Assembly (NCBI GenBank): GCA_036924285.1
Contig: JAYKYS010000024.1
Location: forward strand, 186,001-250,000
Direction of reading: 5' to 3'
Source: Asterella californica
Lineage: Eukaryota; Streptophyta; Marchantiopsida; Marchantiales; Aytoniaceae
Length of the DNA: 64,000 nt
Under the pieces are notes generated by a model. It did no database searches, was not told the origin of the DNA, and saw nothing but the letters and a program-made list of their open reading frames with translations. A program made the position numbers and the translations under genes. This document shows positions 3,061 to 58,695 of this stretch, piece by piece (position 1 is the first letter of the stretch; every line of letters starts with the position of its first letter).

Positions 3061-3351
3061 TGTCGTGTTGTGGTTTGGCTAGGGTGTGAAACCACCACAT
3101 ATCCTTCGTACGTGTTTAGTGTTGAGGAGCCACTGGGACCTTATCTGGTCAAAAGATAAGACTCCACGTGGACGATCCGTGTACTCTTCGCTGAGTGGAG
3201 ATAAGAGTAGTACTCTTGTCGTCACATGGGGAGATTGATGTATAAGAAGAGAGGTGCGCGGAGCTTGAGGGACAGAGTGTAGAGTATCCAAGTCTAGGGT
3301 GAGTGTGATCAGTATCATTGGATGAAGTAAGCGGCAGTGCGAGTGGTAGGC

Positions 3352-3567
3352 ATGAACGGAGAGCCCTTTCGTGCTCCTGATCTTCCACTTGCGCATCCAT
3401 TCGTCATTAAGATTCATTGTCTGCCGCGGGATCATTTTCGAGTATTTATGGTAGCTCACTGGGGCGAGTCGTTCATGACCGCGGTGATGGCTACTCCAGA
3501 CCCTATCATTCTTCCTATTGTCACATACGACGCGGTTTGGGATCTTACTGTCTATATCTTGCTTTGA
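3352..3567 (+). CDS. Small LTR protein A1 (71 aa), member of a new conserved family
   Basis: ATG at 3352 gives 71 residues, the same length as its counterpart K1 in solo LTR K. The two share APDLP, HRDHFR/PRDHFR, a central glycine (WGES/FGDK) and the C-terminal block ILPIVTYD followed by DLTVYILL/DMTLYILL. Without gaps the last 54 residues also align to B2, and the VMATPDPIILPIVTYDA part matches MLATLEPFVYPVVIYDA of B1. No signal peptide is obvious; the C-terminal third is strongly hydrophobic. I do not recognise the family. It lies upstream of the likely promoter, so it would be read from the 3' LTR at the end of genomic RNA or from its own promoter. Conservation across diverged LTRs is the reason to call it coding. 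Confidence 0.7.
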   Translation: MNGEPFRAPDLPLAHPFVIKIHCLPRDHFRVFMVAHWGESFMTAVMATPDPIILPIVTYDAVWDLTVYILL

Positions 3568-3573
3568 TGTAGT

Positions 3574-3789
3574 ATGGATCCTCCATTAGATCTGAACTTT
3601 CCAGCGAGAGTTCCGTTCAACACCTGGGTCGAAATACGTTGTTACAGTCGACCTAAGATGGCGCATCGAGAGTTTGTCGTCAGGAACTTCGGAGAGGATT
3701 ATTACAACCAGATAATAGCTTCGTCCGTTCCTTTTGTAGTTCCGTTTATTGTCAACCGTTTTAGAGTCGGGATTCTGACTCTCTATTGA
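3574..3789 (+). CDS. Small LTR protein A2 (71 aa), second member of the pair
   Basis: The ATG lies 6 nt after the TGA of A1, and the same 6-nt gap is kept in solo LTR K. It matches K2 closely: VPFNTWVEIRC/VPFNLWVDVRC, VVRNFGEDYYNQIIAS versus IVRNFGQEYYNRVIAS, and PFVVPFIVNRF/PFVVPFIVERF with a shared ILTLY end. It is also a distant paralogue of A1: same length, RC or HC before an Arg, FG at the centre, then P-x-x-x-P and a hydrophobic aromatic end. The spacing suggests a two-cistron unit with reinitiation. The function is unknown. Confidence 0.7.
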   Translation: MDPPLDLNFPARVPFNTWVEIRCYSRPKMAHREFVVRNFGEDYYNQIIASSVPFVVPFIVNRFRVGILTLY

Positions 3790-4552
3790 GTGTAGTTTGT
3801 ACTTCGTGTTTACGTGCTTCGTTGCCGACGGCATCATCAACGGCACGTGTTTGTAGTTTGTTCAATATAAACTTTGAGGCCTAAATGGTACTCTTGGATA
3901 AAAAATTCGTTCTTTGTGTGTTTGTCATGTGAGTGAAGACAAAACCCTTTTGTCAACTTGTTTCTCATTGGTCGAAAGTTTGACCAATCACCTTCTACCA
4001 AGTTCCTTTCACGTTTTGAGGGTTAGAGGCACTTCCCGTGGTCCATTCGCGGAGTGTGAGCTATGGTTGGAAAGCTTGGGAGACGAGGATGCCCGTGGAC
4101 TCAATGGTTGCTGGATTTGAAGCGCGGATGAGAAAGTTACGATCAATTGAAGCTGAGGGGGTCAAATTCGTGACCAATTTCATTTCCGTGAGGTTTTTTT
4201 CGCTTTCTGGGAGTTCTGTGAGGTTGCTGGAGATGAATTGACTGTTGCTGGAAAGCTCTTGAGATGGGCTTGCCGATGGACTCCGAGATCGATCGATTCC
4301 AAGCCGGAGTGAAAAAGTTATGGCCAGCTGAAGTTGGGTGTCTCAAATCGGAGGTTATGATAGTAGGCGACTGTAAACATGAGACATTGAGAGAGATATG
4401 GGGAGTTTGAGGTCGAATTTTTCTATGAAACCTTCCAGGGCCTGAGAAGGTACAGTCAGCTACCTACCTGTGAAATTTTGGATTATTGGGTTGAAGGGAA
4501 ACGTTGTTTTTGTGTACAAGGGTCTGCATATCGCCTTGTGTCATTGACGAAA

Positions 4553-4905
4553 AGGGCTTGGATCGTTCCGAGAGTTTGGTTGAAGATCTGCTGGTGAAAT
4601 TTTAACAGAGTGGTAGTGATGGTGACACATTAGCTTCCTGAGAAGTTTGAGCTGTTTTGATCGAGCGGTTTGTGAGGAATCGAACAGCAAAGTTCTGTCA
4701 AAATAGTATCATGTTATAAAAACAGCGATAAGGGCTTGATCGTTCCGAGAGTTTGGTTGAAGATATGCTGGTGAAATTTTACAGAGTGGTAGTGATGGTG
4801 ACACATTAGCTTCCTGAGAAGTTTGAGCTGTTTTGATCGAGTGGTTTGTGAGGAATCGAACAGCAAAGTTCTGTTGAAATAGTATCGTGTTATAGAAACA
4901 GCGAA
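4553..4905 (+). repeat. Tandem duplication of about 176 bp inside LTR A
   Basis: Two copies start with AAGGGCTTG(G)ATCGTTCCGA and end in AACAGCGA, with the join near 4728. They differ by a few substitutions (for example GATCTG/GATATG). The same pair is present in the 3' LTR at 13057-13409. Confidence 0.85.
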
Positions 4906-5572
4906 CTTTGGAAGAGCATAGATGCCAACTCAGAGATGATCTCTCTGCATGTAATACCTTAATAGAGAGATTATTCTACAGGCTATCTGCTGGCCTTGGT
5001 TTCATCTCATTCTGAGCTGTGGTTGAGGAGTGACAGCGAGTTAAAGTTGAGAGTTTCTTGCTCCGAAAGGCGCAAGAGTTAAGATTCTTTTGGAGAACAG
5101 GTCGACCTGGAGGTTTTGCCAGTGCTTCAGAGCACTTGATCATGGGTATGGAGAGTTGTTGACTGTATTTCCTGTGTTTGGATCCTCTCCATACCCGCAT
5201 GCCTGTTTGTACGCCCAGTTGGTTTTGATTGGATTTGTGTGCGGGCGTTGCGCTTAGGTTTCTTTTCTATTAGGAGTGCTGGTATTTCTCTTGTGGTGAG
5301 GCTGGAGTGATGACCAGCAGACCCAAGAATGCTTGCGGTGATGGCAGGAACAGGTTGCCTGTGCTTGTTACCCCGGTTCTATTCCTAGTCAAGTAAGAGA
5401 GAGATCTGCCGAGAGGACGTGAGGATATCGTAGCGAGAAAGGTTCAAAGTGTACTTGGAGGTCAGAGAGAGGTTTGGGTGGTTGCTGGTTCTGAGTCACG
5501 GAGTGCGACACGTACTCTCTACAGCTAGATACCCGGTGTATTCCCAGATAAGAAAGCACGTCACACGACAGT

Positions 5573-5635: not shown

Positions 5636-8002
5636 ATGGCCGAGAGACAAGGAGTTGGAAACCCTTCCGGCACGATTCCGCTGCAGCTTGATCCTGCTAT
5701 AGGGCAAATGTTCCAAGCATTTGCTCTGTACATGGATCAACAACAAGCTGTTCAACGGAAGGAGGCGATGGCTACCAAGGCTTTGCATTCGGTGGTGGGG
5801 ACATTGGATCAGTTTGAAGGGAGAAACATCTCCAAGTACCTGAAGTTCTATTCTCGAGAGATGGAGCTGAGTAAGGTACCAGAGAGGGAGATGGTACGGA
5901 CGTTTGAGCTTGCTGTTGTCCCGGAGTTACGGGAACATGTGAAGGGGCTCATTCAAGCTCATGGAGCTAACTGGGAGGAGTTTTCTCTTCAGTTGAAGGA
6001 GGAATACTCTTTGGAGGATGCAGATCGAGTGACTAAGAAGTCATTCATGGAGTGGGTGAACAAACCCAGCAAGGAACTAGTTGCTACCGAACTACTTCGG
6101 GAGTTTGAGAGACAGTTTCTTCAACTATCTCGGATGGAGAAGCTCACACTTGAGAATGACAAAGTGGAGCTATTTTTACAGTCAGCCAACAGCGAGCTAC
6201 AGAGGGAGTTAGAGTTGCTGTTGGAAGATCGGACGAAAGACAATGGTCTTACATCTGATTGGAAGAATGTTAGTGAAGCAGTGGGAGTACTTGCAAAGCG
6301 AGAATACCGAAGAGGGAAGGTGGTTGTGAGTCAAGCACCAAGACCGCCGCCTATTGTGATACCACGAAGGCAATCAACGGTGCAGACTGCTCCTCTACCT
6401 ACTATTTCGCTTCCTACTATTCCTATCACTACGATTGTACCACAACGGAATCAAACAATGGAAGATTTGGAGAAGAAGATGAGAGACTTACAGATCAAGT
6501 TGACAAGGTTGGAGGAGAAGGATGGGGCACCTGAAGGGAGACCTGCACCAAAACAAGGATATGTTCAGAGGTGTATTTGGTGTGATAACACCGATCATCA
6601 ACGGAAGGAATGCGGGAGTTTCACTGATGCCTTGCAGCAAGGCATAATTTTCTGGAAGGAAGGAAAAATCGCCTTGAGAGACAACGGAGAGACTCTGAGG
6701 ACCAACTTCGGTAGAGGAGGGATGAAGAAAATTTTGGAGGATCATCTAACAGTGCATGATGTGGCATCGGTAGAAGTTTCTACCTATGGAGTCGAGGTGA
6801 TTAGCAAAAAGGAGAGTACCTTTTTGAAACATGAGGATACCACTGATATGTGGAGTCACGCTGTGAGCACGAACAGAAAGGGGAAAATGGCAAGGGAGGA
6901 GTTGCTCAGAACAGCCACAGCAATCAGGAGTGCTACTGGATGGGATGATCCCGTAGATGCTATGTCCGTTCATGCCTACGTAGCCAAGGCTCAACATGAA
7001 GCTATCATGGAAGAGAAGCGTAGGAGAGACGAGGCTGGTCCAAGTGAGGAGAGAGCGGCTCCCAAGAGGCAACTAAGAGGAGATAGACTCCGACAGGAGA
7101 CTGCACCTCTACGAGAAGAAGCTATGGATGACGTCCTACCATCTGGGAGTACAGAGAAGGGTAAGGGTAGGGAGAAGGGCAAAGCTCCCATGTATAAGCT
7201 GCAATCAGACATTGAAGCAGCAACCAACATGAAAGAGGTGTTGCAGGAGAAGGTGCTCAATACAAAGATTGAGTTTACCTTGCGAGAGATCCTCGGGATT
7301 GCGAAGAAGGAGTTTCATGATGTCATCATTGACATTATCAAGCGGAAGAGACAATTGACGGGAGAGACCGCAGTGTCCAGTGCTCTAGACACAGTGATTA
7401 CAGAGGAAGAGGAGCGAGAGTTGGTTCATTCTTACAACACTCGTAAAGTTCGGTTTGATGTGGATAAGGAAGAGGACGATAAGATCTCTAGTCATTACAC
7501 TAGAGGGCATTGGGCAAGAGCCACGACTGAAACCTTAGTGAATGTAGGAGAGATGAAAGATCCGGTGGTTGCTCTCATCGATCATGGATCTGAGATCAAT
7601 ATTGTCTCTAAAGACATCTACAAGCAGGGTGGATGGCCTGTTGATATAGATCATGGTTGGATGATCCGAGCAGCAAACAACACACGAGGAGAACTCTATG
7701 GTGCTTGTCCGGATGTGAAGGTGAAGATAGGGAATGTGGTACTTGAACAAAACTTCTTTGTTCAAGATACTACTTCCTATCCGGTTATTCTTGGTCAACC
7801 ATTCATTACAGCTGTAAGGATGGAGACTAAGGTGTTGGATGACGGTTCTGCTTATGCTCGAATCAGGAGTCAGGATGGCAAAACAACGGTACAGTTCTTG
7901 ACTGTGTCTGCTAATCATGAGCGTAACCGAGATTACTTGCGGAGCGTGTCTCTACCCAAAGTCACTGAAGAGTTTAAGGATTTTTCCAGAGGGCCACTAT
8001 AG
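5636..8002 (+). CDS. Element A gag-protease polyprotein (788 aa)
   Basis: ATG at 5636, 65 nt after the LTR, is the first good start and matches the start region of the homologous ORFs in E1, E3 and F. Residues 1-230 are a helical capsid-like gag. A proline-rich linker and a coiled-coil stretch follow, then a zinc knuckle CIWCDNTDHQRKEC at about 313-326 (CX2CX4HX4C) and the conserved FGRGGMKK. An acidic/basic variable region precedes a second conserved block (FTLREILGIAKKEFHDVII). The retropepsin-like protease has ALIDHGSEINIVS at about 649, with DHG where DTG or DSG is usual, followed by VILGQPFI. It would form the particle and process it. The C-terminus overlaps the open pol frame by about 25 nt. 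The ORF is intact. Confidence 0.95.
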   Translation: MAERQGVGNPSGTIPLQLDPAIGQMFQAFALYMDQQQAVQRKEAMATKALHSVVGTLDQFEGRNISKYLKFYSREMELSKVPEREMVRTFELAVVPELREHVKGLIQAHGANWEEFSLQLKEEYSLEDADRVTKKSFMEWVNKPSKELVATELLREFERQFLQLSRMEKLTLENDKVELFLQSANSELQRELELLLEDRTKDNGLTSDWKNVSEAVGVLAKREYRRGKVVVSQAPRPPPIVIPRRQSTVQTAPLPTISLPTIPITTIVPQRNQTMEDLEKKMRDLQIKLTRLEEKDGAPEGRPAPKQGYVQRCIWCDNTDHQRKECGSFTDALQQGIIFWKEGKIALRDNGETLRTNFGRGGMKKILEDHLTVHDVASVEVSTYGVEVISKKESTFLKHEDTTDMWSHAVSTNRKGKMAREELLRTATAIRSATGWDDPVDAMSVHAYVAKAQHEAIMEEKRRRDEAGPSEERAAPKRQLRGDRLRQETAPLREEAMDDVLPSGSTEKGKGREKGKAPMYKLQSDIEAATNMKEVLQEKVLNTKIEFTLREILGIAKKEFHDVIIDIIKRKRQLTGETAVSSALDTVITEEEERELVHSYNTRKVRFDVDKEEDDKISSHYTRGHWARATTETLVNVGEMKDPVVALIDHGSEINIVSKDIYKQGGWPVDIDHGWMIRAANNTRGELYGACPDVKVKIGNVVLEQNFFVQDTTSYPVILGQPFITAVRMETKVLDDGSAYARIRSQDGKTTVQFLTVSANHERNRDYLRSVSLPKVTEEFKDFSRGPL

Positions 8003-8046: not shown

Positions 8047-11000
8047 TTGGAGAAGGATAGTGCCTTTTGTACAGGAGTGGTGAGATATTCGGAGAGTGGA
8101 TTTGCTGTGTATACACAGCTTGCTGATCTTCAGAAATGGGAGAAGAAAGCTGTGCAAAGAACCCAAAAAGATCTAAAAAGAGTTGGTGTGCTTAGTGAGG
8201 AGGATAAGATAGAGGGCGTTTACATGGAGATGGATTTGGATGATCCTTTGGAAGAACTTCGTAAGGCTGAACAAGGGAATGAAGACCAAGTTGTCTACAT
8301 ACGTTCTATGGAGCTTTACTCGGCTATAGAGTCATTCCAGATACCTGAAGTCAGAGTTGAGACCAGGTATAAAACGGTGGATAAAAAGGTGAAGCCGGTT
8401 GCACAACCGCTACCTAGCGACTCTGACCAACGAGTTCAACAAGCCTCAAAGGAGAAGAGCTTACGGTATCCTGATCAGATAGGTCACAAGTTTACAGAAG
8501 CTACGCTTAAGGAGTTGAAGGTTGGTTCTACAAATTTTCTTCTACCTGCTGAGGAGAAGGAGTTCAAGGAGATGTTAAGTAGGCACGGGAAAACATTTGC
8601 TTTTGAGCCTTCAGATATTGGGTGTGTAGATCCAAGCGTTGTAGCACCGATGATCATATTTACGGTACCGCATACGCCGTGGGACTTGAGACCAATTCCC
8701 GTACCTAGGGCACATCTGCCTAAGCTTATGGAGCTTCTAAAGGAGAAGATGCGGATGAGAATCCTTGAGCCATCGTTTGCACCGTATTCCAGCCGCTGGT
8801 TTACAGTGCCGAAGAAGAGCGGAGCGCTACGGTTCATTCAGGATATGCAACCGGTGAATCAGGTGACCATCAGAAATACGGGGATCGGACCTATTGTGGG
8901 AGAGTTCGCTGAAGCATTCGCTGGTAGAGCCATTTACTCGATAGGAGACCTCTACTCTGGATACGATCAGTTTCAGCTTGCTGAAAAGAGTAGAGATGTC
9001 ACTACTATGAGGACACCGTTGGGTTTGGTGAGGATGTGCACATTGCCGCAGGGGGCAACAAATTCTGTTGCGCACATGATGAACGGGATGAACAAAGTTC
9101 TTCGAGACTTCATCCCGGAGAAGACCATGCCTTTCTTAGATGACATTCCAATCAAAGGATGTGTAGAGGAGCAGAAGGATGAGAGAGTCGATCAGAAGGG
9201 GTGTCGAAAATTTGTGGCTGATCATATTCTAGATTGTGATCAGATTTTATCACGGCTCGGGGAGGTTCACTTGACACTATCTGGTGCTAAGTCTTCGTTT
9301 GGAGTTCGAGAGGTTGTGATTGTGGGGCACTTATGCGGATGGTTTGGTCGCAAACCTGATCCTAACAAGGTGGATGCCATACAGCGGATGAAGGACACAT
9401 GTAGCTCAACAACAGAGGTGCGAAGGTTCTTAGGAGCTTGCGTGTTTTATCATGTGTGGATTCCTCATTTTGCTCATGTATCAGATCCACTCTATGGTCT
9501 GTTACGGAAGAGCACGAAGTTCAGATGGGAGGAGAGGCATATCGAAGCGGTGCAGAAGCTGAAGCAGTTGTTGTCTTCTCCACCTGTGCTACGAAGGGTG
9601 AGTTATGAAGATGGCAAACACGTGATAATCACGGTTGATACAAGTCCGATAGCCATTGGGTGGGCAGTGGGACAAGATGATGAGGATGGAAACCGGTTTG
9701 CAATCAGATTTGGAGCCAAAGTGTTGAGTGAGCGACAGCGAAACTACCCACAAGTAAAGCGAGAGCTATGGGGGGTAGTTACTGCGATGAAAGTTGAGAA
9801 GGACTATTTGATTGGAGCACCGGTGATAGTGGAGACGGATTGTTTGCCACTGTTAGGGATGATTACGAATTGTAACACCCCTGATATCGCTATGTTGCGA
9901 TGGATTGCCTATATCAAGTCATTGAATCCGGAATTTAGACACATAGCGGGAAAAGATAACCCGGTAGCAGATATGTTGTCTAGGGCCAGATATGAAGATG
10001 AAGAGGAATTGACAGAAGACACAGAGGATATAGGCACGACCGTCTTTTGTAGAGCTCAGAAGGGAATGAAGGAGCATCGAAACTCATTCATGGAGGAGCT
10101 ATACGAAGGAGAATGGTTAGACATTGGGCGTTATCTTGGTTCGTTGACCAAGCAACCAGAATGGAATGATGCTCAGTTCAAACAGATCAGGAGGAAGGCT
10201 TACAACTACATACAACAAGGGGGCTATCTATGGAAGCGCGCCAAGCGGAGTGACGAGATGCCGCAACGGGTTGTGTGTAAGCAAGAGATGCAAACCCAGC
10301 TCATTCAAGAATTCCATGAGAGCTTATGGGCTGGACATCGGGGTATTTATGCCACCTTTACCAAACTCAAAGAGAGATATTGGTGGCGTAACATGTACAG
10401 AGATGTGGTGCGATTTGTGGAGACGTGTGTAACTTGCCAGATGTACTCTGACATCCGACATCGAGATGAGCTTCATCCTACGTATCCACTTGCAATGCAT
10501 TACAAGTGGGTAGTAGATCTAGTTACGATGCCGGTGGGGATATGGCAGATGAGATACTTGGTTTTGGCACGGGAGGATCTATCGAACCAAGTCGAAGGAC
10601 GCGCTCTGCGCACAAACACTACAGAAGGGGTGTGCAGATTTCTACTTGAAGATGTGATCTGCAGATACGGATGTGTTGGGAAGATCACAGCAGACCGCGG
10701 AGAACTGAATGCTCACGAAGCTGATATGTTCTTCAAGAGGCGGGGAATCAAGTTAGCTCTTACCATGGCTTACAACCCAGAAGGAAATGCGAAGAGTGAG
10801 CGCGGTCATCCTCCCATCAGGAAAGCGATTGTGAAAGCTTGCAACGGAAGGGTGAGAGAATGGCCAAGGCTTCTACCATTTGCTCTATGGGCCGATCGTA
10901 CAACTCATAGCTCGGTGACCGGATACATGCCAGCAGAACTAATGCAAGGGCAAAAACCGATCATGCCTATCGAAGAGCAAATACCTACTTGGAGTGTTCT

Positions 11001-11499
11001 ACCTTGGGACGATAATCTCTCTAGAGAGGATCTTCTCGCTCTTAGGATTCGTCAGTTGGAGCGGAGACCAGAGGATGTAGAGCTAGCTCTAGAACGGTTA
11101 CGAAAAGCTCGCTTGAAGAACAAAGACAGATTTGATAAGCGACATCGACTACGACCTAAGAAGATCCAGGAAGATGATTGGGTATTGGTATATGATAGCA
11201 GCTTGGATAACCAGCATAGAGCGTTGAGAAAGTTTTCTAAACGCTGGTTTGGGCCTTACGTGGTTGTTCGTATTCATGACAATGCCACATACGTACTACG
11301 TGAGTTGGATGGTGCACAGCTTAAAGTTCCGATTGCAGGAAAACGGATAAAACTCTTTAAGCGACGAGATGAAGATCCAAACATTGAGGAGATCAGTAAC
11401 GAGTTTGATCTCTCTCAAGATCAAGATGAGAGTCCAGATGAGAGCGTAGAGCCTGAAGGGGAGACTCCCGAAGAAGAAGATGAGGAAGAAGTGGTATGA
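8047..11499 (+). CDS. Element A RT-RNase H-integrase polyprotein (about 1150 aa)
   Basis: The frame is open from 7978, so the given start (a TTG at 8047) is arbitrary. It lies in the -1 frame relative to gag, so frameshifting or reinitiation is likely. RT: YSIGDLYSGYDQF with Asp about 301, LPQGATNS, and FLDD at 363-366. RNase H: TVDTS (Asp about 531), KRELWG, ETDCLPL, NPVADMLSRA. Integrase: a zinc region with FHESLWAGH and CVTC, then Asp 824 (WVVDLV), Asp 883 (TADRGE) and Glu 918 (KSERGH), a DDE triad. A GPY module (RWFGPYVVV) follows near 1065. There is no chromodomain; the tail is very acidic (DEEEVV end). All catalytic residues are present. It copies element RNA into DNA and inserts it. 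Confidence 0.95.
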   Translation: MEKDSAFCTGVVRYSESGFAVYTQLADLQKWEKKAVQRTQKDLKRVGVLSEEDKIEGVYMEMDLDDPLEELRKAEQGNEDQVVYIRSMELYSAIESFQIPEVRVETRYKTVDKKVKPVAQPLPSDSDQRVQQASKEKSLRYPDQIGHKFTEATLKELKVGSTNFLLPAEEKEFKEMLSRHGKTFAFEPSDIGCVDPSVVAPMIIFTVPHTPWDLRPIPVPRAHLPKLMELLKEKMRMRILEPSFAPYSSRWFTVPKKSGALRFIQDMQPVNQVTIRNTGIGPIVGEFAEAFAGRAIYSIGDLYSGYDQFQLAEKSRDVTTMRTPLGLVRMCTLPQGATNSVAHMMNGMNKVLRDFIPEKTMPFLDDIPIKGCVEEQKDERVDQKGCRKFVADHILDCDQILSRLGEVHLTLSGAKSSFGVREVVIVGHLCGWFGRKPDPNKVDAIQRMKDTCSSTTEVRRFLGACVFYHVWIPHFAHVSDPLYGLLRKSTKFRWEERHIEAVQKLKQLLSSPPVLRRVSYEDGKHVIITVDTSPIAIGWAVGQDDEDGNRFAIRFGAKVLSERQRNYPQVKRELWGVVTAMKVEKDYLIGAPVIVETDCLPLLGMITNCNTPDIAMLRWIAYIKSLNPEFRHIAGKDNPVADMLSRARYEDEEELTEDTEDIGTTVFCRAQKGMKEHRNSFMEELYEGEWLDIGRYLGSLTKQPEWNDAQFKQIRRKAYNYIQQGGYLWKRAKRSDEMPQRVVCKQEMQTQLIQEFHESLWAGHRGIYATFTKLKERYWWRNMYRDVVRFVETCVTCQMYSDIRHRDELHPTYPLAMHYKWVVDLVTMPVGIWQMRYLVLAREDLSNQVEGRALRTNTTEGVCRFLLEDVICRYGCVGKITADRGELNAHEADMFFKRRGIKLALTMAYNPEGNAKSERGHPPIRKAIVKACNGRVREWPRLLPFALWADRTTHSSVTGYMPAELMQGQKPIMPIEEQIPTWSVLPWDDNLSREDLLALRIRQLERRPEDVELALERLRKARLKNKDRFDKRHRLRPKKIQEDDWVLVYDSSLDNQHRALRKFSKRWFGPYVVVRIHDNATYVLRELDGAQLKVPIAGKRIKLFKRRDEDPNIEEISNEFDLSQDQDESPDESVEPEGETPEEEDEEEVV

Positions 11500-11564: not shown

Positions 11565-11855
11565 TGTCGTGTTGTGGTTTGGCTAGGGTGTGAAACCACC
11601 ACATATCCTTCGTACGTGTTTAGTGTTGAGGAGCCACTGGGACCTTATCTGGTCAAAAGATAAGACTCCACGTGGACGATCCGTGTACTCTTCGCTGAGT
11701 GGAGATAAGAGTAGTACTCTTGTCGTCACATGGGGAGATTGATGTATAAGAAGAGAGGTGCGCGGAGCTTGAGGGACAGAGTGTAGAGTATCCAAGTCTA
11801 GGGTGAGTGTGATCAGTATCATTGGATGAAGTAAGCGGCAGTGCGAGTGGTAGGC

Positions 11856-12071
11856 ATGAACGGAGAGCCCTTTCGTGCTCCTGATCTTCCACTTGCGCAT
11901 CCATTCGTCATTAAGATTCATTGTCTGCCGCGGGATCATTTTCGAGTATTTATGGTAGCTCACTGGGGCGAGTCGTTCATGACCGCGGTGATGGCTACTC
12001 CAGACCCTATCATTCTTCCTATTGTCACATACGACGCGGTTTGGGATCTTACTGTCTATATCTTGCTTTGA
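11856..12071 (+). CDS. Small LTR protein A1, 3' LTR copy (71 aa)
   Basis: The protein is identical to the copy at 3352-3567. Being in U3 of the 3' LTR, downstream of pol and the polypurine tract, this is the copy that genomic RNA would contain. The position is comparable to nef or the MMTV sag gene, which lie in 3' LTRs; that comparison is about position only, not homology. Confidence 0.68.
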   Translation: MNGEPFRAPDLPLAHPFVIKIHCLPRDHFRVFMVAHWGESFMTAVMATPDPIILPIVTYDAVWDLTVYILL

Positions 12072-12077
12072 TGTAGT

Positions 12078-12293
12078 ATGGATCCTCCATTAGATCTGAA
12101 CTTTCCAGCGAGAGTTCCGTTCAACACCTGGGTCGAAATACGTTGTTACAGTCGACCTAAGATGGCGCATCGAGAGTTTGTCGTCAGGAACTTCGGAGAG
12201 GATTATTACAACCAGATAATAGCTTCGTCCGTTCCTTTTGTAGTTCCGTTTATTGTCAACCGTTTTAGAGTCGGGATTCTGACTCTCTATTGA
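12078..12293 (+). CDS. Small LTR protein A2, 3' LTR copy (71 aa)
   Basis: The protein is identical to the copy at 3574-3789 and again starts 6 nt after the stop of A1. See A1 and A2 for family features. Confidence 0.68.
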   Translation: MDPPLDLNFPARVPFNTWVEIRCYSRPKMAHREFVVRNFGEDYYNQIIASSVPFVVPFIVNRFRVGILTLY

Positions 12294-14078
12294 GTGTAGT
12301 TTGTACTTCGTGTTTACGTGCTTCGTTGCCGACGGCATCATCAACGGCACGTGTTTGTAGTTTGTTCAATATAAACTTTGAGGCCTAAATGGTACTCTTG
12401 GATAAAAAATTCGTTCTTTGTGTGTTTGTCATGTGAGTGAAGACAAAACCCTTTTGTCAACTTGTTTCTCATTGGTCGAAAGTTTGACCAATCACCTTCT
12501 ACCAAGTTCCTTTCACGTTTTGAGGGTTAGAGGCACTTCCCGTGGTCCATTCGCGGAGTGTGAGCTATGGTTGGAAAGCTTGGGAGACGAGGATGCCCGT
12601 GGACTCAATGGTTGCTGGATTTGAAGCGCGGATGAGAAAGTTACGATCAATTGAAGCTGAGGGGGTCAAATTCGTGACCAATTTCATTTCCGTGAGGTTT
12701 TTTTCGCTTTCTGGGAGTTCTGTGAGGTTGCTGGAGATGAATTGACTGTTGCTGGAAAGCTCTTGAGATGGGCTTGCCGATGGACTCCGAGATCGATCGA
12801 TTCCAAGCCGGAGTGAAAAAGTTATGGCCAGCTGAAGTTGGGTGTCTCAAATCGGAGGTTATGATAGTAGGCGACTGTAAACATGAGACATTGAGAGAGA
12901 TATGGGGAGTTTGAGGTCGAATTTTTCTATGAAACCTTCCAGGGCCTGAGAAGGTACAGTCAGCTACCTACCTGTGAAATTTTGGATTATTGGGTTGAAG
13001 GAAAACGTTGTTTTTGTGCACAAGGGTCTGCATATCGCCTTGTGTCATTGACGAAAAGGGCTTGGATCGTTCCGAGAGTTTGGTTGAAGATCTGCTGGTG
13101 AAATTTTAACAGAGTGGTAGTGATGGTGACACATTAGCTTCCTGAGAAGTTTGAGCTGTTTTGATCGAGCGGTTTGTGAGGAATCGAACAGCAAAGTTCT
13201 GTCAAAATAGTATCATGTTATAAAAACAGCGATAAGGGCTTGATCGTTCCGAGAGTTTGGTTGAAGATATGCTGGTGAAATTTTACAGAGTGGTAGTGAT
13301 GGTGACACATTAGCTTCCTGAGAAGTTTGAGCTGTTTTGATCGAGTGGTTTGTGAGGAATCGAACAGCAAAGTTCTGTTGAAATAGTATCGTGTTATAGA
13401 AACAGCGAACTTTGGAAGAGCATAGATGCCAACTCAGAGATGATCTCTCTGCATGTAATACCTTAATAGAGAGATTATTCTACAGGCTATCTGCTGGCCT
13501 TGGTTTCATCTCATTCTGAGCTGTGGTTGAGGAGTGACAGCGAGTTAAAGTTGAGAGTTTCTTGCTCCGAAAGGCGCAAGAGTTAAGATTCTTTTGGAGA
13601 ACAGGTCGACCTGGAGGTTTTGCCAGTGCTTCAGAGCACTTGATCATGGGTATGGAGAGTTGTTGACTGTATTTCCTGTGTTTGGATCCTCTCCATACCC
13701 GCATGCCTGTTTGTACGCCCAGTTGGTTTTGATTGGATTTGTGTGCGGGCGTTGCGCTTAGGTTTCTTTTCTATTAGGAGTGCTGGTATTTCTCTTGTGG
13801 TGAGGCTGGAGTGATGACCAGCAGACCCAAGAATGCTTGCGGTGATGGCAGGAACAGGTTGCCTGTGCTTGTTACCCCGGTTCTATTCCTAGTCAAGTAA
13901 GAGAGAGATCTGCCGAGAGGACGTGAGGATATCGTAGCGAGAAAGGTTCAAAGTGTACTTGGAGGTCAGAGAGAGGTTTGGGTGGTTGCTGGTTCTGAGT
14001 CACGGAGTGCGACACGTACTCTCTACAGCTAGATACCCGGTGTATTCCCAGATAAGAAAGCACGTCACACGACACCGT

Positions 14079-17271: not shown

Positions 17272-17436
17272 CTAAAAGAGTACGAACATCACCAATTCCA
17301 TTCGCGAATAATCTACCATAGGTAACATGAAAGGAAATGGTTGTAACAACACCTCTTGTGCCATCTCTTCTCCCAAGGTAATCATGAGCCTGAGTCGCAT
17401 CATCGTCTTCTCCACCATCCGAATGACGATCTCCAT
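17272..17436 (-). CDS. Small protein B2 (54 aa), same family as LTR proteins A1/K1
   Basis: ATG at 17436-17434 overlaps the TGA of the upstream zinc-knuckle ORF by one base (TGATG), an arrangement that favours stop-restart translation. The 54 residues align without gaps to the last 54 of A1 up to the tyrosine of the PxVxY block. They share a central GE, then P-x-P-x-x-L-P-x-V-x-Y (PFPFMLPMVDY against PDPIILPIVTY) and a hydrophobic MFVLF end. It ends 49 nt before the gag ATG. The ORF is short, so the alignment and the coupled start are the evidence; the function is unknown. Confidence 0.6.
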   Translation of the reverse strand: MEIVIRMVEKTMMRLRLMITLGEEMAQEVLLQPFPFMLPMVDYSRMELVMFVLF

Positions 17437-17912
17437 CACAACTCAGCCGAGTCCTTTTTTGAAGTCGACAACTTCTCCGTTTCAGCTCTTTGAGTCTCGT
17501 CCAACTTCTCGACTACTGACGTAAGTAGGGCGGCCATATCGACGCACTTGTGTCCTCTTGATAGATCACCCATTCCACAACTTGGACAAGGATCTTCGCC
17601 TAGAAGATGAATTGGCGCTGGTGACGATGGACCCACTCGAAGACTTAAATCAGTAAACTCCCGCTTCCCTTTAGCTCTCTCGGTTCTGATTCTAGTTGGA
17701 CAATTCACTACTTTGTGTCCCAACCCTCTACAGAAATAACACCACAAGTCGGTTTCTACTCTTCTCCTCAGAGATTCTACTTGAGGTTTAGTACTAGGGT
17801 TTTCAAACTCGACGATAATCTCTCTCGAACTTTCTCCGACACTTACTATGACATCTAAACCTTGAGGAAGGTTTCTAAGTCTAACTTTCCAATCTTTTGA
17901 ATTTCCACTCAT
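17436..17912 (-). CDS. Element B leader ORF with zinc knuckle (158 aa)
   Basis: From ATG 17912 this ORF carries CYFCRGLGHKVVNC, a perfect CX2CX4HX4C zinc knuckle, and a second Cys/His group CPSCGMGDLSRGHKC near residue 110. The C-terminal part is hydrophilic and probably helical. It lies upstream of gag, where Ogre/Tat-like plant elements often have an extra ORF, but I do not recognise this one. It may bind nucleic acid. It ends in the TGATG overlap with B2. It is intact, unlike gag-pol of the same element. Confidence 0.65.
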   Translation of the reverse strand: MSGNSKDWKVRLRNLPQGLDVIVSVGESSREIIVEFENPSTKPQVESLRRRVETDLWCYFCRGLGHKVVNCPTRIRTERAKGKREFTDLSLRVGPSSPAPIHLLGEDPCPSCGMGDLSRGHKCVDMAALLTSVVEKLDETQRAETEKLSTSKKDSAEL

Positions 17913-18050: not shown

Positions 18051-18368
18051 TTAACTATCAAAGATATGATCCTCCTCACCCTCTTTTGTACTCATCACAA
18101 CAGACATCTTGAACTCACTCTTGTAAGGATCCAACTCTATTTCACCAGGAGCATTCGTGGCTTCCATAGTGAATGATGCTTTAAACTCGACTTTCTTCAA
18201 ATCTGTGCCAATGGTCGCGGAAGCTTCTTCATATAGGATAAAGAGGGCACCCCAAGTGCTATAGATGCGTGTTCGTAACTCATCTATACTTAACTTGGGC
18301 TTCTCCGTCTCTGTTCGAACTCCTAAACGTCTCTTCTTCCACCTCGTCATTCGAACTGGATTCTCCAT
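18051..18368 (-). CDS. Element B leader ORF (105 aa), unknown
   Basis: ATG at 18368 opens a 105-residue frame with a basic start (RMTRWKKRRLG) and an acidic end (KEGEEDHIFDS). The middle may fold into beta strands (KKVEFKASFTM, SEFKMSVVM). I recognise no family. It is listed because it lies in order with the other leader ORFs of B, on the same strand. It could be chance. Confidence 0.4.
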   Translation of the reverse strand: MENPVRMTRWKKRRLGVRTETEKPKLSIDELRTRIYSTWGALFILYEEASATIGTDLKKVEFKASFTMEATNAPGEIELDPYKSEFKMSVVMSTKEGEEDHIFDS

Positions 18369-19042: not shown

Positions 19043-19213
19043 CTAAGTGAACAAGACGTAAAGAATGACTTCGAACGCGTCATATATCACTACGGGATAC
19101 ACGAAAGGTTCTAGCGTTGCTAACATCGCGTTAGCTCTCTCTCCTCCCAACGTTCTCTCCATGTGCTCTCTCATAATCTCCTTTTGTCTAATATAGAACT
19201 GAACTCTAAACAT
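19043..19213 (-). CDS. Small protein B1 (56 aa from ATG), same family as A1/K1
   Basis: The first ATG is at 19213. The frame is open back to a TAG within the LTR and overlaps the primer site, and the upstream LPGPHLKG resembles the N-terminus of A1 and K1, so an older start may be lost. The core MLATLEPFVYPVVIYDA aligns to VMATPDPIILPIVTYDA of A1 without gaps, and both end in a hydrophobic YVLF/YILL. It is the first ORF after the 5' LTR. The function is unknown. Confidence 0.6.
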   Translation of the reverse strand: MFRVQFYIRQKEIMREHMERTLGGERANAMLATLEPFVYPVVIYDAFEVILYVLFT

Positions 19214-19258: not shown

Positions 19259-20376
19259 TGTAAACCCTCCGCGGTCCTATCGATCAACTACCCCTCCGAT
19301 CTCTCAACCTCCACGATCGTCATCCACGAATCTGCAACATGTCGGGCATGTCTCTCACTCAGGGGTCACCTCTGATGGCTTTGATGGAAGCACACCATGA
19401 ACTTGAAGGGAAAATGCTGAGTTCACTCATTCATACACCCACAAACTTATCAATTAAAAATCTCCTTAAACACATCAACTAAAATCCTCCATTCTAACGA
19501 CGTCTCTCAAATTCTCACATGCTAAAAATATCCCACACTCTCTATATTACTCAAGTTGTCATTACGACAATGTGAAAACAAGGATGAGGAGCTCTTCTCT
19601 ACTCCTCTATTTATACATTCTAGGTTTTTACTTTGGTACCCTCCGGTAACTCAGTCATAACTACTTTTACCGAGTTTTACTAAGATATTACTTTAAGGTA
19701 AAAGCATTAATCACATGGGCTTTTTATCTTTTCACATGGGCTTATTCCTTCAAAGTCAACAACTTCTAGAAGGATCCTGGAATATTCTCAAGGAATCTCA
19801 AATTTCCACCCCCCCTCTACACTAGGATCCACTAAAAAGGAAACATGTGGAATCTCTTCTTGTTTTTAATGCCCACAAAGTCCACAACTTTAATCCAACC
19901 ACTAATATCAAGTCAAAAAAGAGATAAGGGATACTTTCCATCTCCTTTCTACCTTTTAGACAAGATGACAAGATAGTAGTGCTCACTCTTTAGGAAATAT
20001 CTGATTTCCACCCCCTCTCTACACTAGGACCCACTAAAAAGGAAACATGTGGAATCTCTTCTTGTTTTTAATGCTCACAAAGTCCACAACTTTAATCTAG
20101 CCACTAATATCAAGTCAAAAAGGAGACAAGGGATACTTTTCACCTCCTTTCTATCTTTTAGACAAGGTGACAAGATAGTAGTGCTCACTCTTTAGGAAAT
20201 ATCTGAATTCTGCCAAAAGTACAGCTAAGTTTAACCATAACTAACTTTTAGCTAGTCATGACTAACTTGATACCTCCTTAAAGTACTTGGGCAGTAAATA
20301 AAAATTCTCAACACTTAGTTATAACTAAATACCTTACTAATAGACAAACTTCCTATGTGTAACATAAGTTGGTACA
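19259..20376 (-). repeat. Element B 5' LTR
   Basis: Pairs with 184-1304 and contains the same 202-bp tandem pair (about 19800-20205). It is followed on the plus strand by GTAC, the other copy of the target duplication. Confidence 0.92.
19607..19615 (-). promoter_or_regulatory. TATA box of element B 5' LTR
   Basis: TATAAATAG on the minus strand, conserved at 536-544 in the 3' LTR, is a close match to the plant TATA consensus. Transcription toward gag would start about 30 nt further along the minus strand. Confidence 0.6.
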
Positions 20377-28211: not shown

Positions 28212-30003
28212 TGTCGTGTCGTGGACCGGCTTCTACTTGAAATTCAAACTTCGATGCTTGTCGCTCCGAAGACACTCATAAGAAGACAAGCTAGGCCCTA
28301 GCTTACGGGTTTTTGGCACCATTTTGGATCTTTGCTTTCATCGCATCAGTGGATACACCCCTCGCATCAGTGGATACACCATCAGCTAGGCCCCAGCTTA
28401 CGAGCTTTTGGCATCATTTCGGATCTTCGTTTGCATCACATCAGTGGATAGAGCTCCTTGTCAGCATTCCATAGGCACTTTGTCTACTTCATTTGGACGC
28501 CTAGTGGAGAAGTTACAGGACTCGAAAGATGGAGAAAACAAGCTAAGCCCCAGCTTACGAGCTTTTGGCATAACTTCGGATCTTCACTTTTATCGCATAG
28601 ATGGATAGAGCTCATTGTCAGCTTTCCATGGGCATCTTGTTTACTTCGTTTGGACGCCTACTGGAGAAGTAACAAGACTCGAAAGATGGAGAGAGCAAGC
28701 TAGGCCCCAGCTTATGAGCTTTTGGCACAACTTCGGATCTTTGCTTTCATCGCATCAGTGGATAGAGCTCCTTGTCAGCATTCCATGGGCACTTTGTCTA
28801 CTTCGTTTGGACGCCTAGTGGAGAAGTTACAGGACTCGAAAGATGGAGAAAACAAGCTAGGCTCCAGCTTACGGGCTTTTGGCACACTTCGGATCTTCAC
28901 TTTTATCGCATAGATGGATAGAGCTCATTGTCAGCTTTCCATGGGCATCTCATTTACTTCATTTGGACATCTAGAGAAGAAGTTATGCGATTCGAAAGAA
29001 GGCAAAATCAAGCTAGGCCCTACTTACTTGATTTTTGTTCGCCTGCGACCTGAGGTTGGGCTATTCTTCGCGATTGGTGAGCCAAGCTCTTTGTTCTTGG
29101 TGCCTACGCGATCAAGGAGTCTTCATCAACTTATAGGAGAAGACCGTGTGTGGATTGGATTGTTGGTTTGGGTGTGGTGAGCGAGTTTGAGCCGCAGGGA
29201 GCTGATTTACGTCAGGTTTTTGCAATCTGCGACCAAATTTCTCGATTGGTTTTGCAAGGGGAACTCCAAACGGCTTGTTTGGAGTCTTGTTGGGTTCAGG
29301 GTAGCTAGATCTATCTACCAGAGAAGATAGATATCAGTTTAGACGATCCGTTTGTGCGGGGTGGGCGGTTTTAAGTCGCTTGGAGGAGTTTTTGAAGGTT
29401 CGATCACCTGCGACCGGAAATCGGCGATATCTCGACTATCAAGAGTCGGGTCTGAAGGTTTCTTGAGCCAAAGGAGTCAGGGACGGAGACCCTATCAACA
29501 TTTGAAGATCGTTTGACGAAAAGAGAAAGTTCTCAGATAGGTCTTTTTCGGTTCCTTCGCTACGGATTTCGTCCTTTTGAGTTCGTTAGGGATTTAGTTG
29601 GTTGTGTACGGCTTGTGGTAGCTAGCTTTAGCCAAGAGCTAGTGCATGGATGTGGTTTGGACTTGGGTTTGGATCGCGTGATACTGTTGTGGCTCTATTT
29701 GTTAGCAAAGAGAAGTTTCTCTTGCTTTGAGCTACGCTTCGGCGATTTTGGGTTAGGGTTGTGATTCAGGGGTTTGTTTAAGGGCTTTGAAGTAGGATAC
29801 AGACCGCTCTGGTCTGTTCATCAGTTTTGGGCTCTTAAGAGAAAGAACTGGTAGTGTACATATATTTCGAGTTGGTATATATCGCAACGTTCGTTTCGTG
29901 GTTGTTCTTCTCTGTCTTGTCTCCGTTCGGCACACATCATCTCCACAGCCAGGAACCTCACGTTTTCCTGGATATCCTTCACGCAAAAAAATCCGACACG
30001 ATA
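28212..30003 (+). repeat. Element E1 5' LTR (shortened)
   Basis: It is 1792 bp against about 2150 bp for the 3' LTR without its plastid insert. A segment of about 480 bp, present at about 33376-33855 and in E3, is missing near 29033. It carries the 157-bp tandem repeats, and a TATATATC element near 29877 that is conserved in all three E LTRs. Confidence 0.9.
28384..29030 (+). repeat. 157-bp tandem repeat array in LTR E
   Basis: Units begin at AGCTAGGCCCCAGCTTA-like sequence at 28384, 28541, 28698, 28855 and 29011, giving a period of 156-157 bp. A truncated unit starts at 28289. Open frames here are short and shift between units, so I do not call them coding. Similar arrays are at about 32519-33360 and 61009-61640. 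Confidence 0.9.
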
Positions 30004-53359: not shown

Positions 53360-53681
53360 TGTCGTGTTGTGGTTCGGCTCCTGGGTGAAATTCCTGTGTA
53401 ACCTATGTTGTGTTTCTTTTCTGTGTTTCGTGAACCGTATCGCGTAACTCGCCGAACGGTGTGATGAGTGCCACGTTTGTGATTATCTATTTAAGTGATC
53501 GCACGGTAGAGGAACGTTCCAAGTCATCGATCTGTGTGCGTTCACTTCAGTGGTCCTTGTCGCCGCAATTGTGTATAAAATGGTGGGTCGAAGGTTCATA
53601 CGACATTCTCTCTCAGCGGGTGATTCGTAAGAGTTCTCGGTGGTCTGCATGGAGGAGTGAAGAACTACAGGAGTGGTGGTT

Positions 53682-53897
53682 ATGGACGGAGGTGTGTTAC
53701 CGGCTCCGGATCTTCCTTTCCCGAATCCGTTTCACATCAAGCTTCATTGCATCCACCGCGATCACTTTCGACAGTGGTTAGTTGCATACTTTGGCGATAA
53801 ATTCATGGGAAGAATGATGGAGTTACAGCTTCCGGTGATCCTTCCGATCGTAACATACGGAGAGACTTGGGATATGACGCTGTACATTTTGTTGTGA
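53682..53897 (+). CDS. Small LTR protein K1 (71 aa)
   Basis: ATG at 53682 gives exactly 71 residues, as for A1. Conserved parts: APDLP, PFHIKLHC, HRDHFR, YFGDKFM, VILPIVTYGETWDMTLYILL. Many third-position and neutral changes separate it from A1, yet the frame and both ends are kept, which argues for selection on the protein. The surrounding LTR is much less alike. The function is unknown. Confidence 0.7.
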   Translation: MDGGVLPAPDLPFPNPFHIKLHCIHRDHFRQWLVAYFGDKFMGRMMELQLPVILPIVTYGETWDMTLYILL

Positions 53898-53903
53898 GGA
53901 ACA

Positions 53904-54107
53904 ATGGATCTCAACTATCCATCGAACGTTCCTTTCAACCTTTGGGTCGATGTCCGGTGCCATTGCAGACCGAAGATCAATCATGGGGCTTGGATCGTGA
54001 GAAACTTCGGGCAAGAATATTACAATCGAGTGATAGCTTCACCGTTTCCTTTTGTCGTACCTTTTATTGTAGAACGTTTCCAGGTTGTAATATTGACGTT
54101 GTATTAG
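53904..54107 (+). CDS. Small LTR protein K2 (67 aa)
   Basis: The ATG is 6 nt after the K1 stop, as in LTR A. MDLNYPSNVPFNLWVDVRCH, IVRNFGQEYYNRVIASPFP and VVPFIVERFQVVILTLY match A2 over almost the whole length; four residues are missing near the N-terminus. The intact frame in a solo LTR means it could still be expressed if the LTR promoter works. Confidence 0.7.
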   Translation: MDLNYPSNVPFNLWVDVRCHCRPKINHGAWIVRNFGQEYYNRVIASPFPFVVPFIVERFQVVILTLY

Positions 54108-55768
54108 TCTGCGGCTCACTGGTTTCATTCTGGTTGAGCGCTTCTGTGTAATTATGGACCGCAAAGAATCCTTCGACATGCCTCAAGGATTTTCTGAGGT
54201 CTTAGAGTGTTGTTGATGTCTTGTGTCTCCTTGGGGAGTAAAAATTCGTTCTAAGGGAAAAGTTAAGAGGAGAAAAGACAAAAAGTAAAGCTCTTTTTGC
54301 TCTTATTGGTCCACTTTTGGACCAATGGTGTTCTAGTTGATCCTCGCGACGTTTTTGTGGTTTCTGGAGGCTCCGGAGGTCCATTCGCAAAACGAAGGAT
54401 ATGGTTGGAGAGCACTCGACCGGGGCTACAATCTGGGCTGAAGAATCAGTCGATTTCATGGAGGGATGAGCGCGTTATGATCGATTGAGTGGAGGGGGGT
54501 GAAATTCGTACCTACTGCTACGTTTCTGGTTATTCCGAGAGACTCGCGAGGAGTTTTGAGGAGCTGTCTGTTGGGTTGGAGAGCTGACGACGTGCTAGTC
54601 GTTTTGATATCAATTTGATCAGATTCTTGATCGATTTGGATTCTGAACCGACCGATTGAAGTTGAGAAGTGCAGACGGGATAAGACGAGAACAGCGAACT
54701 GTGATAGTCATGGGTAGATTGCTATTGCTTAAGTTTTGGGTCGAATTTCTGAGTGAAACTTTCCAGGACTGAAGCATGTCTTATCAGTAAGATACTTGGG
54801 AAGTTTCACCTCAAATGGTCGAGTAGTTTGTTCAGAATCTTGGATCAAATGTACCTGGGTCTGTAAAGCTCTGAAGTTAGCACAGATTACGGTTTGATCC
54901 ATATCTGAGAATTGGTTTGAGATTTCGACTTGAAAATTGTTCAGGGTAGGATTGAAGGGTCCAATCAAGCTTCCTGTGAAGTTTGATCATCATTGGTCGA
55001 TTGGTTTGGGAGGACTGATGTCTCAAAGTTCGAAGATACTTCTGTTATTAGCAGTTTCGGGTTTTTCGGTATCATCTATTGTCATTTTGGTCATCTTCAA
55101 GCAATTTGGAGAGGAGTTTGTTGCTGAAACTGCCATGCCTGCATCCAAATCGACATTGGAGGGTGTGGGGCTGATTTCAGCTCTTGGTGATGAAGGAGAC
55201 CGAAGTTACCGTGAGTCTTAAACCACTGTTTGAGTTCTCGGAGCTGCCAGGTATTACCGCCGTTGGTGTTATATTGAGATCTGAGTAGTGTCTTGGAGTA
55301 TGCATGCTTTACCTTGCTGGAATGCTTGGTAGACCAGGGTGTACAACAAGTTTTATCGATGCTCTATCAAGTTGATTGAGTGATCTTATAGTATCTTCTG
55401 TTTGTACTATGGAGTTGTGATAGTTGGATTGATGGGCAGTTAGCGTCGCTGGGTAGCTATTCAGAAGTCATGCTTCCAGTGATATAGAGAAATAACTTCA
55501 GTTAGATAGTACAGAGTTGAGTATTTTAGTTAGAGTACAAAAGATCTGTTTGTAACACAAGTTTATGCAACCTATACGTAACCTTGGATCGTAGCAAGCT
55601 TTAAACTTGAGCCGAGCGGATACAAGGTCACTCGGGCTAGAAGCGTAAATAGTGAAACATTTGAGTGGAAACATCCAGATCTAGATCCAACCTTGTCAAT
55701 CCACATACCTCTGCACAGCCATATACCCAGTGTATTCCTAGACAGAAAAACACGTTATACGATAACGC

Positions 55769-57606: not shown

Positions 57607-57970
57607 CACAGGAAACTTTTGTTAAATAGTTAAATAATCGTCGAGTAGGCTTGGGATGAAGAATGAGGTTATGTGAACCTTTATTAGTGTAGGGGTAGAG
57701 TTTGTGGAGACAACTGTGAAACTTGTGTTAAAAAGGGGCCAACTTTGTAAAAAATGCTCTGTACGCATAAGGACAGCAGGGGGGCAGCTTAAGCTAGGGC
57801 CCTGCTTGTGATAAGTGATTGCACTTATAAGGACAGCAAGGGGGCAGCTTAAGCAGGGGCCTTAACTTTTAGGTTTAATACCTGCGACGGCTGGAGATCG
57901 GGGACACTTTTCAAGGGAGTTTTCTGAGAGAACTGAGGCGGAAGGAGAAAAAAGGAGCAGAATTAAGGAT

Positions 57971-58262
57971 TGAGGAGAGGAGACGCTGAGAAGCTTGGAG
58001 GCTGAGCAGGGATTGATTTTTCTGACAGAATTGAGTGGATTGAGGAGAAGAGACGCTGAGAAGCTTGGAGGCTGAGTGGGGGTCAAATTTTCTGACAGAA
58101 TTGAGTGGATTGAGGAGAGGAGACGCTGAGAAGCTTGGAGGCTGAGCAGGGATCGATTTTTCTAACAGAATTGAGTGGATTGAGGAGAGGAGACGCTGAG
58201 AAGCTTGGAGGCTGAGTGAAGATCGATTTTTCTGACAGAATTGAGTGGAGTGAGCAGGGGAG
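57971..58262 (+). repeat. 70-bp tandem repeats in LTR F
   Basis: TGAGGAGAGGAGACGCTGAG-type units start at 57971, 58041, 58111 and 58181, with a partial unit at 58251; the period is exactly 70 bp and identity is high. LTR D of the same family lacks them. Confidence 0.93.
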
Positions 58263-58695
58263 ATCGTGAGAGAGGCAGGAAAGTGTTTTGGAGACAAGAA
58301 CCTCATATGTTACACAGTTTTGAGGTTTGGAAGCAGTAGAATTGAACGGACAGAGGTGTTTTATTTGAAGGAGATCGTTTTTGACAAGGCTTTGGTTGTC
58401 GTAAGATCAAATTCCTTGGAATTTTCAGCTGAGAAGGACTTAGGAGAGGAGGAGAGAGATATTTTCCTGGCAGTGAAGCAGTTGACATTGAAATAAAGCT
58501 ATTTCTACTCCGGAGAGACATATTTGTGTACCTGAGTGCGTGCTTGAGTGTTTGTTTTGCAATTGGTGGACACAAGAGGCTGTGTTTTGAGATTTCATCG
58601 TCTGCAGCGATCTATCTTCCTTTCTGGTCATTTCTCTCTGATCTATCACAGTCAGGAGGTTCGCCCTCCCCAAGAAAGATTCTCGTCTCGACATC

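Follow-up and report, generated by a model that had tools for sequence, protein, structure and literature searches.

Do the short open reading frames (ORFs) that lie within and beside the LTRs of retrotransposons in Asterella californica encode proteins and, if so, what might those proteins do? The question was raised by a 64,000-nucleotide stretch of contig JAYKYS010000024.1 (hereafter the window), in which a first-pass annotation had picked out six ORFs of 54-71 aa as a new family of small proteins carried by three different retrotransposons. We found each of the six where it had been placed in the window's ORF list, with lengths of 71 aa (A1, A2 and K1, the exact equality of A1 and K1 having been remarked on before), 67 aa (K2), 56 aa (B1) and 54 aa (B2).

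Carriers and kinship of the six ORFs

Element A is bounded by a 5′ LTR (3061..5570, + strand), which begins with TGTCGTGT and ends with ACACGACA, and by its 3′ LTR copy (11565..14074, +), recognised by LTR comparison. The two LTRs show 2 mismatches in 2510 bases, and the TSD is CCGT. Between them lie a gag ORF of 788 aa (5636..8002, +), with a DUF4100 match above the cut-off and an aspartyl-protease-like end below it, and a pol ORF of 1091 aa (8224..11499, +) with RT, RNase H and integrase zinc domains. Given that its LTRs are near-identical and that gag and pol are open, element A is a young insertion; minus-strand pol ORFs flank it on both sides, which suggests that it sits inside element B. 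A1 (3352..3567, +) and A2 (3574..3789, +) lie in the 5′ LTR and recur in the 3′ LTR at 11856..12071 and 12078..12293 (both +). K1 (53682..53897, +) and K2 (53904..54107, +) occupy solo LTR K (53360..55764, +; TSD ACGC). All four are supported by the ORF list, BLASTP and constraint tests.

In element B, both members lie in the internal leader and were recognised by profile matches: B1 (19043..19213, −) shortly past the LTR end, and B2 (17272..17436, −) before a gag-like region whose identification is weak (E 0.19, below the Pfam cut-off). Between them come, in order, a 105-aa ORF (18051..18368, −; ORF list and B loci) that falls outside the small-protein family and a 158-aa CCHC-like ORF (17436..17912, −) with a zinc-knuckle match below the Pfam cut-off; neither protein has a Pfam match above the cut-off. 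The TGA of the 158-aa ORF overlaps the ATG of B2 (TGATG), B2 starting inside the preceding stop. Relatives of the 105-aa or the 158-aa ORF lie downstream of B1 in most of 30 B loci, and a chain of short uORFs precedes B1 (19288-19618, −), among several of which stop and start codons overlap or abut. The claim of three different retrotransposons holds for the number of carriers (A, K and B), but A and K are related families whose gag proteins are 75% identical, so "three different" overstates how independent these carriers are.

The window also holds other repeats. LTR A contains a direct repeat of 131 bp, spaced 176 bp apart (4598-4904 and 13102-13408), 157-bp tandem repeats with common neighbouring blocks occur at 28381-28994, 32883-33339 and 61003-61773, and a repeat in four copies at 70-bp spacing lies at 57967-58316.

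That the six ORFs form one aligning family was borne out by searches of the window's own frames. When each ORF was compared by BLASTP with all window frames, members matched one another well before any other frame: A1/K1 at 55% identity (E 5e-27), A2/K2 at 64% (E 4e-33), B1/B2 at 39% over 46 aa (E 2e-7) and K1/K2 at 29% (E 5e-5). A profile of 19 relatives from which element B had been left out, searched against the six-frame translation of the window, ranked B2 (E 1.2e-7) and B1 (E 5.2e-7) directly after the A and K members, with the next frame at E 0.81; against ten residue-shuffled frame sets, the best E-values were 0.018 to 1.3. The glycine and two proline columns that had been put forward as shared signature residues are indeed common to the members.

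The same comparisons divide the family into two related halves. A profile built from ORF1-type sequences only (A1, K1 and their like) recovered K2 (3.1e-7), A2 (4e-7), B2 (8e-6) and B1 (1.6e-4) ahead of the next frame (0.26), and one from ORF2-type sequences only recovered B1 (4e-6), A1 and K1 (about 1.5e-5) and B2 (6.5e-4) ahead of the next frame (1.5). Aligned with each other by hhalign, the two profiles gave a probability of 96 and an E-value of 2e-9. In profile-profile comparisons, single B1 matched the ORF1 profile with E 5e-5 at a modest probability of 68, and single B2 matched the ORF2 profile with E 1.4e-4 at a modest probability of 53. A tree of 20 rows, with the 38-aa fragment P0012 left out, separated an ORF1 group (support 87/90) from an ORF2 group (97/96). 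The A and K members cluster in both halves (91/85, including P0001 and P0004, and 93/78). Members of a further family, C, branch outside them in each half, although weakly supported there (80/93 and 85/71); parallel topologies of this kind would be expected if the pair is inherited as a unit. B1, B2 and P0013 sit on long branches, and the placement of B1 and B2 is unsettled. The profiles and the modestly supported tree make it very likely that ORF1 (A1/K1) and ORF2 (A2/K2) are a paralogous, co-inherited pair; B1 and B2 are probably also paralogues kept as a pair.

A search for further homologues, proposed together with the original claim, found them in the window's own genome and outside it. 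In a collection of 5.8 billion sequences we detected 13 further matching proteins (P0001-P0013), with the source labels lgn and ena; P0013 additionally bears the labels ncbi and jgi ("hypothetical protein"). No Pfam domain is listed for any of them. In the genome of the window (516.7 Mb, 773 contigs), a first look gave candidates, unconfirmed as members: 1,279 with the A pair as a DNA query, and 5,221 with B1, 6,915 with K1, 6,723 with P0005 and 6,989 with P0002. Among the best 40 (DNA query) or best 150 (protein queries), which alone were scored, identity was 99-100% for the A pair, 98-100% for B1, 96-100% for K1, 70-75% for P0005 and 61-65% for P0002, many of the P0002 places being the same as those of the A pair. 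Stop codons were absent from 150 of 150 places for B1 and for K1, 144 of 150 for P0005 and 149 of 150 for P0002, counts that are biased toward intact copies because only the best places were scored. An extra ORF besides gag-pol is kept in many copies, both at these best-scoring places and among K loci. Hits recur in pairs about 8.4 kb apart for K and about 8.1 kb apart for the P0005 type, spacings that the paired LTRs of complete elements would produce. Five ORF2 hits lie about 45.8 kb apart (G000 C114:2543282-2726572), as in a tandem segmental duplication.

The P0005-like sequences in the window's genome represent a fourth carrier, family C. In one copy (L070), ORF1 spans 401-616 (71 aa) and ORF2 623-826 (67 aa), the LTR ends at 959, and gag, which is 46% identical to A gag over 175 aa, begins at 1028; the order is ORF1-ORF2-gag, that is, two small sense-strand ORFs upstream of gag. 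The two LTRs of this copy are identical across 1,394 compared bases, a stretch that stops short of the LTR's 5′ end. Because the LTR of A, K and C contains the pair, a full element has two copies of it, and it persists in a solo LTR like K.

Protein-level constraint and predicted fold

The first-pass annotation had named dN/dS near 1, with equal conservation in other frames, as the outcome that would speak against a protein family. Tests of codon position and dN/dS instead revealed constraint at the protein level. A1 and K1 share 0.62 of their nucleotides, and their differences are distributed 22/18/42 over the three codon positions of 71 codons; for A2 and K2 the identity is 0.67 and the differences are 18/9/39 over 67 codons. 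The corresponding estimates (dN 0.37 and dS 2.25 for A1/K1; dN 0.24 and dS 4.2 for A2/K2) give rough ratios only, since dS above 2 is saturated. The shifted forward frames lack the codon-position pattern; a mirror image of it appears in one reverse frame, which codon geometry would predict.

We also placed the same substitutions at random sites in 5000 trials per pair and scored the outcome by protein identity. The observed identity was never reached for A1/K1, A2/K2, K1/C1, A2/C2 or K2/C2, and was reached once for A1/C1. Paralogous and distant pairs, for which (as for C1/C2) the alignment was optimised at the protein level, reached it in 9 (A1/A2), 4 (K1/K2), 1 (B1/B2) and 3 (B1/C1) of the 5000 trials; C1/C2 alone gave a weak paralogy result, with 303 of 5000.

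The A and K versions of the larger proteins are more constrained (gag: dS 1.40, dN/dS 0.10; a piece of pol, 86% identical: dS 1.47, dN/dS 0.05), showing that the small proteins change faster than gag and pol, yet are constrained. Selection is also visible among copies. In 30 K loci selected on K1 score, differences per site per copy amount to 0.0194 within K2 and to 0.025-0.035 in its flanks; those in K2 fall 39/11/67 by codon position, and K2 is intact in 26 of the 30, which were chosen by ORF1. Both ORFs are intact in all eight element A loci that were fetched, the window's own two included. In 60-base windows of the A and K LTR alignment, identity is 0.55-0.68 over the ORFs, 0.38-0.43 just 5′ of them and 0.43-0.45 just 3′. 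The earlier statement that the surrounding nucleotides are far less conserved is accordingly right for the immediate flanks, but not for other parts of the LTR, which reach 0.57-0.72. Purifying selection acts on ORF1 and ORF2 between families, and on K2 also among copies, and the ORFs are almost certainly a real coding family under selection.

AlphaFold2 models, built from alignments of 9 sequences for A2 and 11 for A1, present the same succession of strand, helix, helix, strand and strand. Mean pLDDT is 84.6 for A2 and 81.6 for A1, with a pTM of 0.60 each; the first 20 residues have low pLDDT, and ten-residue blocks from residue 21 onward score 90-96 (A2) and 84-95 (A1). The core is a confidently predicted beta-alpha-alpha-beta-beta fold. 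Neither model has a significant structural match in the PDB, nor has the A2 model one among the viral folds of BFVD. The six ORFs matched no Pfam family at E up to 1, and the 12 sequences in the ORF1-type alignment gave a best Pfam E-value of 0.17, short of the curated cut-off. In keeping with the view that no described family resembles this one, no known family emerged from Pfam, PHROGs or comparison by fold. Nor did we recognise the family in the literature on ORFs in LTRs and on small proteins upstream of gag, as represented by titles and abstract openings of mostly open-access articles.

Position of the pair and its proposed expression

Retroviral nef and sag encode accessory proteins that overlap or lie within the LTR, in U3 near the 3′ end. 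The first-pass annotation had likened the position of the small ORFs to theirs, an analogy that looks weak. In LTR A, a TATA-like box that may serve as a promoter element (TATAAG, 3241..3246, +, found by pattern match) lies 111 nt before ORF1, and in LTR K the distance is 108 nt; across the 30 K loci, TATAAA starts at −108 (29 loci) or −109 (one locus). In element B the TATA-like box lies about 400 nt ahead of B1: among 30 B loci, 27 have TATAAATA at a distance of 394-408 nt. In family C, no TATA-like box was found within the stretch read. TATA-like boxes upstream of ORF1 make R/U5 or leader a likelier location than U3, which is now doubtful. Together with the layout of family C, they indicate that the pair is probably transcribed in the leader (R/U5). 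The resemblance to nef and sag is that accessory genes lie in the LTR in both cases; the difference is that the present pair probably lies downstream of the promoter.

Tiny uORFs precede the pair. That of A has two codons (ATG AAG TAA, 3322..3330, +) and ends 21 nt before ORF1, as does the uORF of a K copy (L069), which reads MEE-stop; family C has one of three codons and one of 20 codons, the latter ending 3 nt before ORF1. The distance from the ORF1 stop to the ORF2 ATG is 6 nt in A, K and C, with differing bases, and the gap and ATG are kept in 28 of 30 K loci. A2 starts four codons upstream of the aligned K2/C2 start, and a one-codon ORF (ATG TAG, 3567-3572) overlaps the A1 stop; the equal gap in A therefore does not represent the same start position for position. 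For P0003, back-translation by hand fits the end of ORF1 in another frame and suggests a different junction, a TGATG overlap. Tight stop-start spacing is a recognised sign of termination-reinitiation, and the spacing here tips the balance slightly toward such a mechanism for the translation of ORF2.

The way from ORF2 to gag differs among families: 27 ATGs intervene in 1,846 nt in A and 21 in 1,712 nt in a K copy, compared with none in 201 nt in C. Gag in A and K would need splicing, internal entry or another start. A perfect inverted repeat, ATTGGTC...GACCAAT, occurs 3′ of ORF2 in both LTR A (3967-3988) and LTR K (54305-54326) with differing middles, and is perhaps a processing or regulatory signal.

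A working model and its alternatives

We moderately favour the view that these ORFs are a new family of small LTR-retrotransposon accessory proteins, encoded by a two-gene module that is translated first and acts in trans. An ancestral small protein of beta-alpha-alpha-beta-beta fold would have duplicated into ORF1 and ORF2, which would since have been inherited jointly at the 5′ end of the transcript, before gag. Pol II would initiate at the LTR promoter, likely upstream of the pair in A and K; ribosomes would move past the very short uORF, ORF1 would be the first cistron of any size to be translated, and the 40S subunit would reinitiate at ORF2 after the ORF1 stop, 6 nt downstream. The two paralogous products may then pair through their hydrophobic hairpins, a heterodimer for which we put the chances as even, and serve the element family in trans. 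As to what they would do, our leading guess, a tentative one, is a host-facing antagonist that blunts, for example, silencing or restriction; it draws on evolution faster than that of gag and pol, little net charge and the potential for production without gag-pol.

Only a little less probable, though still doubtful, is that the pair help Gag to form particles or to package RNA, as small partners translated ahead of it from the RNA they share. The ORF1-ORF2-gag order in C fits this role, as do the location of the pair before gag in A and a K copy and that of the B pair before the weakly identified gag-like region. However, the A and K pairs lie 1.7-1.8 kb before gag, in the LTR, and a solo LTR could make the pair without Gag; moreover, net charge ranges from −3 to +3 across 21 family proteins, unlike that of a basic nucleic-acid-binding helper.

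The stretch separating the pair from gag also bears on an arrangement that we consider unlikely, in which the pair, positioned in U3 like nef or sag, is transcribed from a promoter of its own and genomic RNA starts at a second promoter farther downstream in the long LTR. About 1.8 kb of ATG-rich LTR follows the pair in A and K, and LTR A has two more TATA-like matches past ORF2, at 3866 and 4715; if the genomic RNA started downstream, the ATGs would cease to be a difficulty. Family C leaves little room for such a promoter, however, because its LTR ends 133 nt past the ORF2 stop (826 to 959 in L070) and gag follows 201 nt past it, and the K copy L069 has no TATA-like match after ORF2 in the part scanned.

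The nearest published arrangement that we found, in the text available to us, is that of the Drosophila MDG1 group (412, mdg1, Stalker and Blood), in which sense-strand sORF1 and sORF2 of about 110 and 70 aa lie upstream of gag (PMC11952523, preprint). According to the available parts of that preprint, the sORFs have a low non-synonymous rate and a short transcript ends after the first; sORF1 is predicted to be helix-turn-helix and sORF2 a hydrophobic or transmembrane helix with an adjacent polybasic region, and an N-myristoylation motif (MGxxxS/T) is present in sORF2 of several members and absent from Stalker1 and Stalker2 (PMC11952523). Compared by description rather than by sequence, both systems have two small sense ORFs before gag, whereas the present pair are paralogues of about 70 aa that are predicted to adopt an alpha/beta fold and, in families A, K and C, are part of the LTR. 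By analogy with the FAST-like sORF2, the small proteins might sit in membranes and transfer particles from cell to cell, which we regard as improbable. The layout agrees, down to a second ORF of about 70 aa (PMC11952523), and there is a hydrophobic C-terminal stretch, the 19-residue Kyte-Doolittle maximum exceeding 1.6 in 6 of 21 family proteins. Yet that stretch is confidently predicted by AlphaFold as a beta hairpin, is interrupted by conserved proline and charged residues and has no polybasic tail past it; none of the 21 proteins begins with MG, the start of an N-myristoylation motif, and the two ORFs are mutual paralogues.

Least probable is that the ORFs are regulatory uORFs whose translation matters and whose peptides do not: chains of short ORFs with some stop-start overlaps do surround or precede them (the B leader; tiny uORFs in A, K and C), but amino-acid constraint across families and paralogues, the shared G, P and P columns and the confidently predicted fold speak against it.

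Two descriptions from plants come close to the accessory-protein reading. The rice elements Retrosat2, RIRE3 and RIRE8 have an ORF0 upstream of gag-pol, LTRs of about 3 kb and faster evolution of ORF0 than of gag-pol (PMC3485330). Again compared by description and not by sequence, ORF0 resembles our ORFs as an extra, faster-evolving ORF before gag-pol, but it is single where ours are a paralogous pair, and the phrase "within the LTR" is absent from the available text of PMC3485330. Plant aORFs are conserved in most copies of a family and have an unknown function (PMC7264820, review); in the available text of that review their usual location is downstream of pol and upstream of the 3′ LTR, and the phrase "within the LTR" is likewise absent (PMC7264820).

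Among single functions, the host-facing guess remains ahead of a part in Gag assembly and well ahead of a FAST-like membrane role. A further, equally tentative possibility is that the LTR is itself the gene: every copy, solo LTRs included, would be a promoter plus a bicistronic pair whose small heterodimer doses the cell in trans, against host defence or for the element family, independently of intact gag-pol.

LTRs are usually viewed as regulatory DNA; here, several abundant families carry conserved, paired protein genes in or by their terminal repeats. Our findings would add a new protein family with an unmatched predicted fold and a putative function to the few known accessory proteins of retrotransposons. 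If the LTR is indeed a gene, solo LTRs would be candidate genes instead of inert scars, and dispersed LTRs would supply a trans-acting factor without intact gag-pol copies.
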